A stretch of 29,590 nt of DNA from Candidatus Zixiibacteriota bacterium. GTDB lineage: Bacteria; Zixibacteria; MSB-5A5; SM23-73-2. The position numbers and the translations under genes were made by a program. Where the stretch lies: the NCBI GenBank assembly GCA_030615745.1, contig JAUWYR010000029.1, positions 1 to 29,590 of the forward strand. The letters run 5' to 3'. Each line of letters begins with the position of its first letter. Position 1 is the first letter of the stretch. The notes under the pieces are model-generated. The model worked only from the letters and a program-made list of their open reading frames with translations. It made no database searches and was not told where the DNA came from. This document shows positions 5,838 through 21,048 of this stretch, one piece after another.

Positions 5838-6134
5838 TTTTCCCCTCCATCTTTAATTTTCGGAGAATTTAACAATTTTCAACTCCTTAGTCAAACATTT
5901 TTTACCTCACAGAGAAATTAAAGTTTCATAAAAGATTAAAAAGCAATCAATATGCCAATTGATTTTATAAAACAGAAATGTTTATAATTGACCCAAGTCT
6001 TTTTATTACAGGGAGTTAACTTAAAGAGGAAAAACGTTATTTATAACTTTAGAAAAGCATTTGCACAATAATTGTTCGGTGGAAAAAATTTTTGTGCAAA
6101 AACAGGAGTATAAAAAAGAGAGCTTCTTTCCGTT

Positions 6135-6384
6135 GGTATCGGACACCCTGTCCGATACCTTCTTGACGTCACGGACAAGGTGTCCGTGACGAACTTGAAC
6201 TTGATCCCTAGTTGGTGCGGGAATTGGATTTCCCGCACCCTGTGATATTCGGGAATTCCAATTCCCGAATGAACAACGCCGGGTCCCCTGACCTTGCGAG
6301 GAAATCCTGTCTGGTCAGGGGACCAGACAGGCACAAGATAGTATTGTAATGCCGCCTCCGTTAGTAAAGGACAATTTGTCCGTT
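6135..6384. repeat. Array of six hairpins with unrelated stems and common geometry
   Basis: Perfect or near-perfect inverted repeats: 6135-6159 (GGTATCGGACA, loop CCC), 6167-6191 (CGTCACGGACA, loop AGG), 6214-6239 (GGTGCGGGAA, loop of 6), 6247-6270 (ATTCGGGAATT, loop CC), 6306-6331 (CCTGTCTGGTC, loop AGGG; its 3' half can alternatively pair with 6282-6293), and an imperfect one at about 6355-6382 (TAGTAAAGGACAA). Arms are 10-13 bases and loops 2-6. Several are followed by GAAC-type tails. No coding potential. Related hairpins lie at 19878-19998 and 20913-21048. Confidence 0.85.
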
Positions 6385-6513
6385 ACTATTGTAAGATTTC
6401 ATCCACTCACAAGGTGTCAGTTACGTATTTGAGATCGTTAGTTCCAAAAGATTTTTGTGTGAAAACTAAAATGCAAAGCTTTAGCTTTGCTATGTTAAAT
6501 AACAATTAATTCA

Positions 6514-6551
6514 GTAAACCTGCCTGTCCGGGCAGGAAAGGTTTACACTCC
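6514..6551 (+). repeat. Hairpin with ACTCC tag, nested loop
   Basis: GTAAACCT (6514-6521) pairs with AGGTTTAC (6539-6546), followed directly by ACTCC. The loop contains a smaller CCTG/CAGG stem. One of seven hairpins in the window followed by the same ACTCC. Confidence 0.7.
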
Positions 6552-6616
6552 AGATTTTGTGTGTAGGCACGCTTTATTCGTGCTTCTTGCACAGATAGAA
6601 TCTGTCTCTACAAATC
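6541..6616 (+). repeat. 76-base repeat, left copy (flanks the four-gene cassette)
   Basis: Matches 11431-11506 at 70 of 76 positions by my count, in the same orientation. It can fold as a three-way junction: TGTAG (6562-6566) with CTACA (6608-6612), enclosing GCACG/CGTGC and ACAGAT/ATCTGT hairpins. Confidence 0.85.
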
Positions 6617-6741
6617 TTTTTCCCACCCTACTTTTTTAGTGAAATTGCAAATCACTTATTGTAGAACGTACAAAGTGCCCCGAAAGGGATTTTGGCTGAA
6701 GTGAAGCCAAGTTGATATATCATTTTATATGGGTGATGGCA

Positions 6742-7881
6742 TTAATCCCAACCTCTTTCCTTCAGTGCTTCTTGAGCAAATTTCTTATCCAATAAAACTA
6801 CGCCTTTTTCTAATCCGGCATCTAGTATTTGGCCACATCTTACTATAATTGCTCTCGGCTCGCCATTGGTCTTATCATACAGAAACGACACAAAGTCTTT
6901 TGTAAATGGAATTAATGGTTTGTCCTCATATCTTCCATTAACTCTGTTGAATCTTAACCTTTTTTCTATCAGTTCTCTTGTTTGGTGTTTATCAAATGCA
7001 GTAAGCAACGTCTCAGCATCAACACGATCAAGCAGTGGTTGTATTGGCCCACCACTGGAAATTTCTTTTTTCTCCATCTCTTCCAAATTACGCCACCCAT
7101 CTTCTGAGATAGCAATAAAAAGAGCAATGTTTGCAATATCCCCTGCCTCTTTACGCTCAGGTAAAAAGTCATATAGCCCTCTTAGTAGGGCAAGATAAAT
7201 ACTTTGCTGCGCCTTTGGAACTAAGCTAAATAAATACTCAAATTCATCTATAGCCAATAGTATTGTAGAAAATCCTAACCTCTTTATAAATCCTAAAATG
7301 CCCGCAAGATATTCCTTAGCGATATCAATATCTTCTATTTTTCTAATTACTTCTAACTTCTTTAATTGAGATTGAGTAGGTTTGATCTCTCCTCTAATGA
7401 AATATAAGGCTAACTTTTTTTCTTCAATCTTCCCACTACAAATCTTTCTTAGAATAGTTTTCACTTCGTCTAAATCAGCAGGTAAATCTTTAATTGATTT
7501 GTCCAATTGCCCTTGGCTTCTATTTCCTTTTATTTCTTCAAAATTTATGTTCTTAAAAATTCTAAATATGAAATCTAATCCCGGATTTTTGGGCTTTTGT
7601 TCCCCTTTGAAAGATAAATACTTCGGTAATATTGCATCATACTTTCTTGCTTCATCAATTATTTTTAATAGAGAAAGCGTTTTACCTCGCCCATAGCTGC
7701 CGATAACAAATACTATATAATTTTTGGTCGAAGAAACACCACATGAGATGATTCTTTTCCATTCTTTCAATTGTTCTTCTCTATTAACCCACGTATCTAG
7801 CCATATCTCTCTTGCTATCTTATCCAAAAACGGATTTCCACTTAATCCATATTTTTTCTCCATAAATTTATTGGGCTTCAT
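6742..7881 (-). CDS. AAA+ ATPase, Orc1/Cdc6-like (BrxC/BrxD-like group possible)
   Basis: A 379-residue ATPase. Walker A is GSYGRGKT (61-68), Walker B LLAIDEFEYLF (208-218, D212 E213), a sensor-1-like strand ALFIAISE (253-260), and a sensor-2 motif NGEPRAI with R343. The N-terminal GNPF...WVNREEQL resembles Orc1/Cdc6 and the P-loop proteins of BREX systems. Family knowledge: such ATPases load or remodel proteins on DNA. It is the last gene of the MTase/Cas4/unknown/ATPase operon, 8 bases after its neighbour; AGGTGA just before the ATG fixes the start at 7881. No helicase motifs are seen, so in a restriction-type system it might be the DNA-translocation or sensing unit. Exact subfamily is uncertain because this group diverges quickly. 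Confidence 0.75.
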   Translation of the reverse strand: MKPNKFMEKKYGLSGNPFLDKIAREIWLDTWVNREEQLKEWKRIISCGVSSTKNYIVFVIGSYGRGKTLSLLKIIDEARKYDAILPKYLSFKGEQKPKNPGLDFIFRIFKNINFEEIKGNRSQGQLDKSIKDLPADLDEVKTILRKICSGKIEEKKLALYFIRGEIKPTQSQLKKLEVIRKIEDIDIAKEYLAGILGFIKRLGFSTILLAIDEFEYLFSLVPKAQQSIYLALLRGLYDFLPERKEAGDIANIALFIAISEDGWRNLEEMEKKEISSGGPIQPLLDRVDAETLLTAFDKHQTRELIEKRLRFNRVNGRYEDKPLIPFTKDFVSFLYDKTNGEPRAIIVRCGQILDAGLEKGVVLLDKKFAQEALKERGWD

Positions 7882-7889
7882 TTTGTCAC

Positions 7890-8735
7890 CTACTTTTTAA
7901 ATATTTTTATAGACAAGGTCCGAAAGTAATTACCTTTGTATTCGAATAATTTTTCCTCAGCCCCCATCGGTCTCCCAAAAGAAATTAGATAATCATTAGT
8001 TGCAAAAGGTATTGATCTCAACATTTTATCGAATTGCTTTTCAGTTAATATCTTCTTATCATTTATCAACATTTTTACAGCCACCTTTTCTCTAAGATTT
8101 GCGATATCCACAACACCCGCCGTGTCTTTGCTAAGCTCAAAATAAGTATCGAATAAATATTTTTTAAATTTTCCAGGATTTTTAAGGGCAATATCTATAT
8201 CCGATAAAGTCTGTTTATATTGATGTGCAATAATGCTCAGATTTCTTTTGTCATCGTAATTTGTTAATCCTACCTGTTCGAGGATAGAAAACCAATGCAA
8301 TGTTCTTTCTTTTTTTTGTTTTTCATTTCGCCCATTAACTATTGAATTCACAAAAGTTAAGAAATCTTGCTTTAAAAATGAGGCTTTTTTAACAAGAATT
8401 CCCAAAAAACCAAATTTTCTTTCATCTATTTCATACACTACCGCTCTTAAAACACGTTGGTGTAGTTCATCATTCAAAGATTTACTCTTAATTATAATTT
8501 TGCCATTGGCACTTAACCTAATAAAACCTCCGTAACCAATTATGAGGCCCAAATGCCGCAAAGATGAGATAATCATTCCTCTGAATACGCTTTTCTCAAC
8601 CTTTCCAGGGTATAGAACTAAGATACACTCTTTTTGTTTATCTCTATTAAACGGATAATGATCTATACATTCTAAACAGGCTTTCAATTTATCTATTCGG
8701 TATTCCTTAATCAGGGGCATCTCTTTGGGTTTCAT
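7890..8735 (-). CDS. Unknown protein with winged-helix-like region, third gene of the cassette
   Basis: I do not recognise this 281-residue protein. Residues about 50-82 (RGMIISSLRHLGLIIGYGGF then IRLSANGKIII) look like a winged helix: recognition helix, two strands with a turn, and the usual leucine-Gly pattern. A second helical section (about 130-185) contains LHWFSILEQVGL, and the C-terminal third is mixed alpha/beta with GRPMGAEEKLFEYKGNYFRT. No nuclease or ATPase motif is visible. The frame extends to a TTG at 8765, but ATG at 8735 overlaps the Cas4-like stop by four bases (ATGA) and has GGAG upstream, which points to translational coupling. It may be the DNA-binding specificity or adaptor subunit of the system; that is inference from context. 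Confidence 0.7.
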   Translation of the reverse strand: MKPKEMPLIKEYRIDKLKACLECIDHYPFNRDKQKECILVLYPGKVEKSVFRGMIISSLRHLGLIIGYGGFIRLSANGKIIIKSKSLNDELHQRVLRAVVYEIDERKFGFLGILVKKASFLKQDFLTFVNSIVNGRNEKQKKERTLHWFSILEQVGLTNYDDKRNLSIIAHQYKQTLSDIDIALKNPGKFKKYLFDTYFELSKDTAGVVDIANLREKVAVKMLINDKKILTEKQFDKMLRSIPFATNDYLISFGRPMGAEEKLFEYKGNYFRTLSIKIFKK

Positions 8736-9742
8736 ACCCTCAACTCCAATCCTTGGTCTATACAATACTCCTTAAATCTACAATAGTAGCAATGACTTCT
8801 CTGCTCTTCAGGTGGAAATGAAGGAGCATGAGGTTTAGATATTATGTTATATGCTTCATCTCTAGAATCTATGAACCATCTTCTTAGATTATCATCAATA
8901 GGAAAAATATAAATTTGAGCGAAGGTAAGGGGCTTAACGTAGGCACTTGGATTGCGAGTAGGGAAGAAATAGATTATTCCCCAATTGATATCATCGCTTT
9001 GTCCAAATCGGTTTTCGTAAGCAAGCGCATAGCCCGCACAGCTAAGTTGATGAAATGGTTTGAATTCAATACCTGTCTTTATATCACCTACTACACCAAA
9101 ATCGCTTATTATGAAGTCTGGAGTTGCCGGAGAATTTATTCCTATTCGTTCAGGTTCTGTTCGGATCTCGGTTTTTATCTTTATATGTTTGAGATCTACA
9201 GAATCATTTTCTTTGATTAATAAATTCAAAACCTTCAAACCTAATTCAGCTCTTCCATTATTGTTCAACAGAGTCAAAAGCCAATCTGTATCACCTTCTT
9301 TTGCCCCAGTCGTGATTTCTTCAAGATTCCTTAATTTTTCTATTTTTTGACTATGAGAAGTATTAAAACTATTATACAACCTCGCCCCCTTTTTTGCTAA
9401 TCCCGAATATGTTCTTGTGATTCGTCCGTTTCCTTCTCGTGAGACTGTTTGAATGTAATTTTCAACAATGTTTCCAGCCTTTTGTCCCCACGTATTTTGT
9501 TTTGCACTTCTTTTTGGGCGATTTAAACCCTTCATGAAATATATGTCCCTACGAGTAGAACAATATTTGTCTGCTATATTGCTTACAGATAAAGGGCGAA
9601 TGGCATTTTCTGTTAATTTTGTTGCAAATTCTCCCGTTAAAAAAGCGTCTGAATTATAACCTCTTAGTTTTATATCTTGCACGCTATCTGCCATTTCTTG
9701 ATCAGGTCTAGCTAAATTCCACATTGTGATGATATGGAACAT
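8732..9742 (-). CDS. Cas4/RecB-like PD-(D/E)XK nuclease with four-cysteine Fe-S site, not CRISPR-linked
   Basis: A 336-residue Cas4-type nuclease. Visible motifs in order: C61 in LSVSNIADKYCSTRRDIYF; GQKAGNIVENYI (86-97) at the place of the RecB GxxxH motif; catalytic D209 (TPDFIISD), D220-I-K222 (a D-x-K version of E-x-K), HQLSCAGYALAYE with Q232 and Y238; and C318-x2-C321-x5-C327 near the C-terminus. C61 plus the last three would ligate a 4Fe-4S cluster, as in Cas4 and AddB. Cas4 proteins are 5'-3' exonucleases or endonucleases that trim DNA ends. It is longer than most Cas4 (about 200) because of an insert between 100 and 190. It starts 2 bases after the MTase stop. No cas gene or CRISPR array is nearby, so it is a stand-alone Cas4-like enzyme, probably the effector of the operon. 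Confidence 0.82.
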   Translation of the reverse strand: MFHIITMWNLARPDQEMADSVQDIKLRGYNSDAFLTGEFATKLTENAIRPLSVSNIADKYCSTRRDIYFMKGLNRPKRSAKQNTWGQKAGNIVENYIQTVSREGNGRITRTYSGLAKKGARLYNSFNTSHSQKIEKLRNLEEITTGAKEGDTDWLLTLLNNNGRAELGLKVLNLLIKENDSVDLKHIKIKTEIRTEPERIGINSPATPDFIISDFGVVGDIKTGIEFKPFHQLSCAGYALAYENRFGQSDDINWGIIYFFPTRNPSAYVKPLTFAQIYIFPIDDNLRRWFIDSRDEAYNIISKPHAPSFPPEEQRSHCYYCRFKEYCIDQGLELRV

Positions 9743-9744
9743 TT

Positions 9745-11160
9745 TTAAACCCTTTTTTTGAGTATCACAATATACTCATTTTTTATCAACCCACCTGTAC
9801 TATTTCGTTTGGTCATCATACTTCTGCTTCGAATTGTATCCTTTAATGTAACTATTTCTATAAATCCTATTTGGGCTGCAGCATCTGCTAATAATCTGTA
9901 AGTGTTGACTTTTTTGCCTAAAACTCTATTATCACCAACTACTAAGATGAGGTAACCTTCTCTATTAAGTAGATGATACATTTCTTTTAATGATTGTATC
10001 ATGTCCATAAAATATTTATAAACCATAAGTGCTCTTTCAAATGAGATGGATAAAGCATAATCTACTGTTGAATCAATAGATACTATACTTAAAGGAGAGA
10101 TTTCAGAATCTTTTTGAACTCTTTCTGTCCCAATTGATGCTTTTTCAAAATCATTGACTTCCTTTTCGGTGTATCCTAACCAAAACAACTCAAGTTTATT
10201 TGTTCTTATATATTTCTGAGCAGTTATGTAAGGTGGAGAAGTCAATATTATGTCAACACTATTGCTTGGTAGGTCCGTTATAGAATTTTTATCTATTCTT
10301 CCACACTCCCCCATGTAAGCTTTCTTTATACGTCGTGCGTCATCCCAAATAATTTCTGCTCCCACTATACCCTCTTTTGCTTCATTAAATTTATTTAACA
10401 AATCTAATTTCTTTTTATTATTATCCACGGCTTCTTTGAACAGTCCTAATACATTGGGATTCTCTGCATTTTTTAGATGTTGTTTCAAATATTGACACTT
10501 ATTGGGATTATTTTTGTATTTTTCGGGTTTAAGAACAACAGGTGGTGGAATATATGGATCTGCCTTAGCAACTTTTCGAATAGTGCTAGAAAAACATACC
10601 CAGAAAAAATCTTTATAATTAGTATCAACTTCTAGAGTATCAATTGCATACTTTAATCTGCCAAGTTTCTTAAGACCATTATTGGAGAACCAAATTTTTC
10701 TGTTTCTGAATTCTGGGATGTAGTTACTTACATCTTTTTTATCTTTATTTAAAGTAATGATTTCATCTGCATATTGTGAAATCTTTTCAGTATTGAAAGG
10801 CGTGGTTTTGACTTTAGAGATAAGCCTTGCTAATGGATTAATTTCTACACCTAAGGAATTTCTTTTGAGAACGGGATTCGTAATAGCCTCTAATAATATT
10901 GTGCCAGTTCCTGCAAACGGATCTAATAAATATCCATCTAGATGCATAAAATCTCTTATTGATAAAAGACAAAAAGGAATATATGGGAAAATCCTTCCCG
11001 GGTAATAATGGATATAATGAATGTGTTGATTATAGTTTCTATCTCCTTCCAATAAATTGCTTGATGCAGATTTAAAATCAAAAACTATTGGTTTCTTCCC
11101 CCTTTTATTGTATTCTTTATTGAGTTGCTCTAGCCTAAATTTTATTGTTTTCCCGCTCAT
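9745..11160 (-). CDS. DNA amino-methyltransferase (TSPPY type, probably N4-cytosine)
   Basis: A 471-residue DNA methyltransferase, first gene of the cassette. The SAM-binding motif I is LLDPFAGTGTILLEA (D80-P-F-A-G-T-G-T) with acidic GVEINP (E106). Catalytic motif IV is ILTSPPY (S308-P-P-Y). A Ser at this position is commonest in N4-cytosine enzymes, while Asp or Asn is commonest in N6-adenine enzymes. Motif I precedes motif IV by about 225 residues, so a recognition domain could lie between them, as in the alpha order. The N-terminal HYIHYYPGRIFPYIP is typical of the family. No ribosome-binding site is evident before ATG 11160; a possible promoter at 11196-11224 would leave a leader of about 30 bases. 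In the operon it would protect self DNA while the Cas4-like nuclease and ATPase attack unmodified DNA (inference). The target sequence cannot be predicted. Confidence 0.85.
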   Translation of the reverse strand: MSGKTIKFRLEQLNKEYNKRGKKPIVFDFKSASSNLLEGDRNYNQHIHYIHYYPGRIFPYIPFCLLSIRDFMHLDGYLLDPFAGTGTILLEAITNPVLKRNSLGVEINPLARLISKVKTTPFNTEKISQYADEIITLNKDKKDVSNYIPEFRNRKIWFSNNGLKKLGRLKYAIDTLEVDTNYKDFFWVCFSSTIRKVAKADPYIPPPVVLKPEKYKNNPNKCQYLKQHLKNAENPNVLGLFKEAVDNNKKKLDLLNKFNEAKEGIVGAEIIWDDARRIKKAYMGECGRIDKNSITDLPSNSVDIILTSPPYITAQKYIRTNKLELFWLGYTEKEVNDFEKASIGTERVQKDSEISPLSIVSIDSTVDYALSISFERALMVYKYFMDMIQSLKEMYHLLNREGYLILVVGDNRVLGKKVNTYRLLADAAAQIGFIEIVTLKDTIRSRSMMTKRNSTGGLIKNEYIVILKKRV

Positions 11161-11354: not shown

Positions 11355-11441
11355 GTAAACCTGAAGGTTTACACTCCAGAGCTATTTGGAGTATAAAGCT
11401 TCAGCTTTATCTTATTTGTAAATCTAAAAAGTTTACACTCC
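11355..11441. repeat. Three ACTCC-tagged hairpins in a row, mixed orientation
   Basis: GTAAACCT-GA-AGGTTTAC then ACTCC (11355-11377); the reverse arrangement GGAGT then ATAAAGCT-TC-AGCTTTAT (11388-11410); and an imperfect GTAAA...AGTTTAC then ACTCC (11418-11441). Stems differ while the five-base tag is constant. Confidence 0.75.
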
Positions 11442-11506
11442 AGATTTTGTGTGGAGGCTCGCATTACTCGTGCTTCTTGCACAGATAGAATCTGTGCCTA
11501 CAAATC
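11431..11506 (+). repeat. 76-base repeat, right copy (flanks the four-gene cassette)
   Basis: Direct-orientation partner of 6541-6616, with six differences. Its second stem is lengthened to GCACAGAT/ATCTGTGC (11479-11486 with 11490-11497). On the minus strand it lies just after the stop of the TPL-like gene. Confidence 0.85.
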
Positions 11507-19871: not shown

Positions 19872-19998
19872 TAAAAAGGTTCGGGGTAAGGTACCCCGAA
19901 CCAACATTCAACAGTAATACACTGGACATACGTTAATGCGTTAGTCAGGGGTGCCCTCACCCCTGACTGATTTGGTTCCGGGTAGGATACCCCGAACG
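19872..19998. repeat. Hairpin array (11-bp arms, 3-4 base loops), copy A
   Basis: 19878-19902 GGTTCGGGGTA, loop AGG, TACCCCGAACC; 19943-19968 AGTCAGGGGTG, loop CCCT, CACCCCTGACT; 19974-19998 GGTTCCGGGTA, loop GGA, TACCCCGAACG (imperfect). 19872-19907 is identical to 20938-20973 (36 bases). Confidence 0.85.
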
Positions 19999-20235: not shown

Positions 20236-20309
20236 AATGTAGGGGAGGGCTTGTCCCCTCCCTTTCGGGAAACCACCCTGGCCGGGCAGGCGAGGGTCTC
20301 CCCTACATT
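20236..20309. repeat. Inverted repeat AATGTAGGGGAG / CTCCCCTACATT
   Basis: Perfect 12-base arms at 20236-20247 and 20298-20309 around a GC-rich core (GGACAAGC-like and CCGGGCAGG segments). A shorter, related CCCCTCT/AGAGGGG stem occurs at 21150-21173 in the partner gap. Confidence 0.7.
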
Positions 20310-20912: not shown

Positions 20913-21048
20913 AGTCATAGGCACCCTTACCCCTGACTAAAAAGGTTCGGGGTAAGGTACCCCGAACCAACATAATATACCGGGCACAGGTTAGTCAGGG
21001 GTGCCCTCATCCCTGACCAGAGAGGTTCAGGATAGAATGCCCTGAACG
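20913..21048. repeat. Hairpin array (11-bp arms), copy B
   Basis: 20913-20938 (AGTCATAGGCA with TACCCCTGACT, imperfect), 20944-20968 (GGTTCGGGGTA, AGG, TACCCCGAACC), 20993-21018 (AGTCAGGGGTG, CCCT, CATCCCTGACC, imperfect), 21024-21048 (GGTTCAGGATA, GAA, TGCCCTGAACG, imperfect). Two types alternate, as in copy A, and GAACAT or AACAT follows the second type. Confidence 0.8.

Follow-up and report, generated by a model that had tools for sequence, protein, structure and literature searches.

Hairpin doublets of probable REPIN type and a 15-nt insertion at hairpin tips in a genome of Candidatus Zixiibacteriota

The hairpin array and its surroundings

The window, the whole 29,590-nt stretch of DNA that was analysed, corresponds to contig 66 of a metagenome-assembled genome of 2.28 Mb, whose estimated completeness is 98.55%. 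Between two of its minus-strand genes lies an array of hairpins, of which five are perfect: 6135-6159 (11 bp, loop 3), 6167-6191 (11 bp, loop 3), 6214-6239 (10 bp, loop 6), 6247-6270 (11 bp, loop 2) and 6306-6331 (11 bp, loop 4). The last has a weak, decayed partner at 6277-6298, and an imperfect hairpin at 6362-6388 (unstranded), with one A-G stem mismatch and a match to the apex GGACA, is a lone half of the type A element described below. Nine perfect inverted repeats of at least 10 bp, with loops up to 8, were found in the window against a mean of 0.4 expected from 10 Markov-1 simulations, and the segment 6040-6600 contains six inverted repeats of at least 8 bp against 0.1 expected. The six neighbouring hairpins with similar arms and tiny loops that a sequence-only reading had picked out are thus real, five being perfect (10-11 bp, loops 2-6) and the others imperfect; its view of the stems as six unrelated words needed correction, as the apex (GGACA/TGTCC, CGGGAA/TTCCCG or GGTC/GACC) assigns the hairpins to families, within which it is mainly the lower stem that differs.

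The hairpins are paired in inverted orientation, each doublet measuring about 60-70 nt and none being assigned to a strand, with short outer feet that read GTT...AAC in types A and B and GTG...CAC in type C. Type A (6132-6194) consists of GTT and the hairpin 6135-6159, a 7-nt spacer, and the inverted hairpin 6167-6191 followed by AAC; type B (6211-6276) of GTT and the hairpin 6214-6239, then the inverted hairpin 6247-6270 followed by GAAC; and type C (6277-6334) of the decayed left hairpin 6277-6298 and the intact right hairpin 6306-6331 with its CAC foot. The type C hairpin carries a constant tip, GGTC-CCCT-GACC, on a variable 7-bp lower stem. Folded as single-stranded DNA the doublets gave z values of -8.9 (A), -6.2 (B) and -4.5 (C).

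A same-genus genome (G001) aligns with the window up to position 6115 and diverges just before the array. A 33-nt direct repeat (76%) at 6071-6103 and 6434-6466 flanks the A-B-C array, its left copy lying within the region conserved in the same-genus genome. Two further repeats follow on the plus strand, a REP designated type D (GTAAACCT..AGGTTTAC, 6513-6554), which holds a 15-nt insert in its loop, and a dispersed repeat designated type E (gcacgctttattcgtgc..cagatagaatctgt, 6563-6620), of which there is a 91% copy at 11427-11506. The adjoining region 6742-11160 has four minus-strand genes that resemble a defence cluster, namely a BrxC/D-like ATPase (PF10923), a protein without assignment, a Cas4/Csa1-like nuclease (PF06023) and an N6/N4 DNA methyltransferase (PF01555).

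Dispersal in the genome and in relatives

The window's own genome (G000) was sampled as stretches amounting to 1.107 Mb of the 2.28 Mb, and the relatives examined belong to Candidatus Zixiibacteriota. When the own genome was searched at the nucleotide level, the array broke up into separate dispersed elements of two hairpins each, with type A matched by query part 125-195, type B by 212-277 and type C by 278-340, and D and E after them. Copies of type A lie elsewhere in the genome (e.g. C14:5503, C22:35138 and C35:45486), type B has many dispersed copies, and A, B and C elements all recur in same-order relatives. The copies were found to be neither few nor unique, as the genome-wide inverted-repeat search proposed in the sequence-only reading yielded 251 perfect hairpins of at least 10 bp in 1.1 Mb of the own genome. 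As many as 228 of the 251 were outside ORFs, although ORFs span 79% of the DNA; neighbouring hairpins less than 50 nt apart numbered 36 in the sampled 1.1 Mb against 2.8 expected, and at least 10 hairpin families share the geometry of the array. Other short words, e.g. GAGATTTGAGAAAG and CGTATGCATCAAGAG, are also dispersed in the sampled 1.1 Mb with many different flanks.

Covariation of the lower stems

Copies of family C were chosen by the tip alone and 27 were aligned; the other five rows of the tip-selected list, two of which pair weakly, were omitted. The tip pairs GGTC/GACC are invariant in the 27 copies, and all seven lower pairs change on both sides. In the lower stem 94.8% of cells are paired (77.3% when shuffled), cells with a double change number 57 (15.2 in shuffles), and the covariation score is 0.504 against 0.144 for shuffles and at most 0.120 for controls in which the partner was slid. 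Without any choice of rows, the seven positions are paired in 20-30 of all 32 tip matches, compared with 9.5-24.6 after shuffling. The signal was weaker in family F10 (GGATG-TTAT-CATCC), where 85.3% of cells were paired against 68.5% and the score was 0.456 against 0.133; pairs changed on both sides were not above shuffles in F10. The proposal that structure rather than sequence is kept therefore holds for the lower stems of C and F10, which covary, and fails for the tips, which are fixed in sequence. Among the lower-stem mismatches G-T was not in excess over A-C (4 vs 10 in C; 9 vs 8 in F10), so that nothing points to RNA, and the pattern fits selection or repair at the level of DNA rather than RNA folding.

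Transposases associated with the hairpins

Of 20 related genomes, 18 have genes for Y1-transposases (PF01797), and many of these genes have matched hairpins at both ends. Type A hairpins bracket the REP-associated tyrosine transposase (RAYT) of G012 (L096), type B hairpins those of G005 (L145) and G004 (L155), and type C hairpins lie 4-13 nt from both ends of a RAYT in G004 (L153). Another family, F4, brackets the RAYT of G007 (L097); in the window it forms a second REPIN cluster with tips GGGGTA/TACCCC, at 19878-19902, 19943-19968 and 20944-20968. The NCBIfam model NF047646 (REP-associated tyrosine transposase) scored above its cut-off for all five RAYTs compared with it (L153, L145, L096, L097 and L106 of the own genome). 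HxH and Y-I-H-x-N-P are conserved, and the profile also picks out the structure of E. coli TnpA-REP (4ER8), whose HxH motif and YI.NP tyrosine align.

Among 47 RAYTs placed in a tree, a single clade (support 100/97) holds twelve, eleven with long-stem hairpins at their flanks and the twelfth (L162) with untyped flanks, and RAYTs flanked by shorter gtag-footed hairpins fall outside it. Of the three RAYTs of the own genome (C17, C25 and C65) only the one at C25 belongs to the long-stem clade, and it is flanked by another hairpin family. The PF01797 search of the own genome (completeness 98.55%, as estimated) revealed no RAYT cognate to A, B or C, and because none was detected the three elements look like orphans there, their RAYT having apparently been lost.

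A 15-nt insertion and its empty sites

The insert in the loop of the type D REP is one of a large set of 15-nt quasi-palindromes. The own genome has 84 exact copies of CCTGCCCGGCCAGGG and 12 of a second form, CCTGTCCGGCCAGGA, 96 in all, and zero copies of the reversed pattern. Elsewhere among 132 genomes of the phylum the word is rare, with 10 copies in G033, 5 in G021, two each in G012 and G018 and single copies in five others. The single copies in G028 and G032 were rejected as insertions; they are codons of an LpxD-like ORF and were put down to chance. Many REP families, unrelated to one another, carry the 15-mer in their tips; it also lies within copies of itself, within genes without breaking the reading frame, and in copies of ORFs that are repeated in the genome and probably derive from IS elements.

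The 15-mer is an exact insertion, filled and empty sites differing by exactly 15 nt. In the window the plus-strand insertion CCTGTCCGGGCAGGA (6523-6537), one base from the CCTGTCCGGCCAGGA form, has its counterpart in an empty type D REP, GTAAACCTgaAGGTTTAC (11355-11372, plus strand), where the join falls at 11363/11364 and the flanks, cagtaaacctg and aaggtttacactccag, are those of the filled site. An exact CCTGCCCGGCCAGGG at 20276-20290 (minus strand) sits in a gtaggGGAGACC..GGTTTCCC hairpin, with an empty paralogous site at L120:2450-2490. When the flanks of an insertion are joined, they align ungapped with empty paralogous sites (e.g. 98.4% over 128 nt). Deletion of the 15-mer restored a hairpin of at least 7 bp (at most 3 mismatches) in 36 of 66 copies, compared with 71 of 4000 random deletions, and G directly precedes it in 61 of 62 distinct contexts in the 1.107 Mb, which are not all independent events. 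A filled REP such as D multiplies together with its insert, so contexts rather than copies have to be counted, and REP replication is a partial confounder of the tip preference.

In mltG the 15-mer adds SWPDR in frame; the same-genus orthologue and seven others are without the insert, and the joined flanks match the same-genus orthologue ungapped over 200 nt at 81%. In 328 kb of the same-genus genome each form of the 15-mer occurs once, in either case in a REP-like tip, and in G033, which belongs to another family, the 15-mer fills the tips of REPs whose empty form is GTAGGGGTTTGATTAATCAAACCCC. Self-nested copies are found at L115:4593 and L139:9603. Three tandem 15-mers, the middle one CCTGCCCGTTCAGGG, lie at L322:17083-17127 within an open frame of 305 codons, and G021 has tandem pairs, one of them in an open frame of 299 codons. 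Possible length variants of the tip insertion are CCTGCCCGTGCTACAGAG (18 nt), in an F10 tip at L112:13304, and CCTGCCCGCCAGGG (14 nt), at 8977 on the minus strand of L324. The 18-mer TGCCTGCCCGGCCAGGGA had one match in viral contigs, an uninformative one.

Identity of the hairpins

It is very probable that the hairpins at 6132-6388 are REPINs of RAYTs and that, separately, the 15-nt quasi-palindrome inserts exactly 3' of G, mostly at hairpin tips. The hairpins can be referred to this known kind because they are dispersed and bracket their own RAYTs in relatives, and because those RAYTs form one clade. Like REPs they are short palindromes of high copy number, mainly extragenic, and like REPINs the A, B and C doublets are two closely spaced REPs in inverted orientation. 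The transposases have the HUH motif, the catalytic tyrosine and a match to NF047646, and are flanked by cognate hairpins in the relatives (L096, L145, L155, L153 and L097); in the own genome no gene so bracketed by A, B or C was found. The feet are GTTG, GTTC, or GTG and then the stem, rather than the canonical 5' GT[AG]G; as degenerate REP tags (GYAG, GYRG and GTGG) are on record (PMC3733652), GTT/GTG is read as a variant foot and is not proof against a REP. The suggestion of a transposable element was thus right in kind, given dispersed hairpins that bracket RAYT genes, and there was no sign of the TIR-dependent element that had been named as an example.

REPINs are pairs of inverted REP hairpins that travel as non-autonomous passengers of RAYT (TnpA-REP) transposases. 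What the RAYT may read is a hairpin in single-stranded form, marked by a GTT/GTG foot and a tip of fixed sequence; after a cut next to this hairpin the enzyme would move or copy the doublet. If the lower stem were read for pairing alone, any paired word would survive, which could account for the covariation.

Hairpins that fold stably and lie between two minus-strand genes could also be transcription terminators or RNA structures under selection on transcripts. Inverted doublets with fixed tips, and dispersed copies that flank transposase genes, are not what such structures would lead one to expect, the mismatches have no G-T excess, and Rfam at its gathering threshold gave no match in the window, all of which makes this explanation very unlikely. 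A replication process such as template switching or quasi-palindrome correction might instead write the palindromes and keep their arms matched, the RAYT having no part in the variation of the stems. The arms do change together, with G-T and A-C intermediates equally rare, as such a process would have it, but fixed tips, fixed feet, doublets and the bracketing of RAYTs are left unexplained, template switching is not needed as a writer of the palindromes, and as the whole account the process is improbable; it could, however, act on top of REPIN mobility.

Comparison with known systems

REPINs were described by Bertels and Rainey (2011, PMC3116915) as inverted REP doublets, intergenic, dispersed and linked to RAYT genes, with compensatory changes reported in the spacer hairpin. 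The Zixibacteria doublets share all of these features, with compensatory changes in a paired region, and since such changes had already been reported covariation as such is not new. In the earlier REPINs, however, it is the central spacer hairpin that varies, between conserved REP ends, whereas family C combines a fixed tip with a variable lower stem in each hairpin, a layout that may be new. The present case also differs in that several families abut and that the genome lacks the RAYTs of A, B and C. Group 3 TnpA-REP has REPs that are perfect palindromes with a short loop, in which certain positions tolerated no mutation (Corneloup 2021, PMC8266576); the likeness here is at the level of the hairpin, perfect and with a short loop, and the foot is GTT/GTG instead of GTAG and the stems are longer (10-14 bp). 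The GTAG- and CGTC-tagged palindromes of Di Nocera (2013, PMC3733652) are short REPs that occur also as dimers, in several families per genome and sometimes in frame within genes, as is the case here; the tags differ, and no 15-nt tip insertion is noted in the text consulted. In the openly licensed literature searched CCTGCCCGGCCAGG was not found in print.

The small dispersed repeats of Nostoc are reportedly very small and mobile and inserted in other repeats and in themselves, and are said to be 21-27 nt long and to occur in cyanobacteria. To our knowledge these are the smallest mobile sequences described. By that description the 15-mer resembles them in being very small and nested in itself and in other repeats, and differs from them in its 15 nt, its Zixibacteria host and its position at hairpin tips. 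The work on them (Elhai 2008) is cited in PMC3116915 and PMC2884548.

Nature of the 15-mer

The 15-mer behaves as an ultra-small mobile insertion, as its exact insertion at sites with matched empty counterparts (paralogous pairs and mltG orthologues) and its nesting in itself and in other repeats are those of a small mobile element. It carries nothing, and the inserting agent must therefore act in trans. A group II intron or retron was considered as the mover and rejected, the reverse-transcriptase domain PF00078 having no match in the carrier genomes G000, G001, G012, G018, G021 and G033. By analogy, exact insertion 3' of a short motif, at tips and with no visible target duplication, resembles single-strand HUH transposition.

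On balance the 15-mer is slightly favoured as a mobile unit that is active and undercuts the 21-27 nt repeats in size. Non-RT machinery acting in trans, perhaps a single-strand HUH transposase that reads DNA hairpins, would insert it 3' of G at tips, into REPs, genes and itself, and it would have expanded to about 100 copies in one Zixibacteria lineage. It could also be the footprint of a larger excised transposon, since its length is exact and uniform and it occurs in copies of the probably IS-derived ORFs. This is unlikely, as the 1.1 Mb revealed no element bounded by halves of the 15-mer, only self-nested copies, and the two forms of the sequence each occur at several sites. The source of the genome, a metagenome assembly, raises the question of an assembly or library artefact, which is scarcely credible in view of mutated copies and two heritable forms, of a filled type D REP that has replicated as a family, of the same word in REP tips of G033, and of the in-frame copy in mltG with its ungapped 200-nt orthologous match.

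Implications

REPIN/RAYT biology is extended by these elements to Zixibacteria, with a clade of RAYTs in whose partner hairpins nothing but the tip and the pairing is kept, so that natural variants allow a recognition rule, tip sequence plus any paired stem, to be read off. Should the 15-mer prove truly mobile, it would lower the minimum size of mobile DNA, and its approximately 100 natural sites, many with empty counterparts, make the target rule and the enzyme directly testable.
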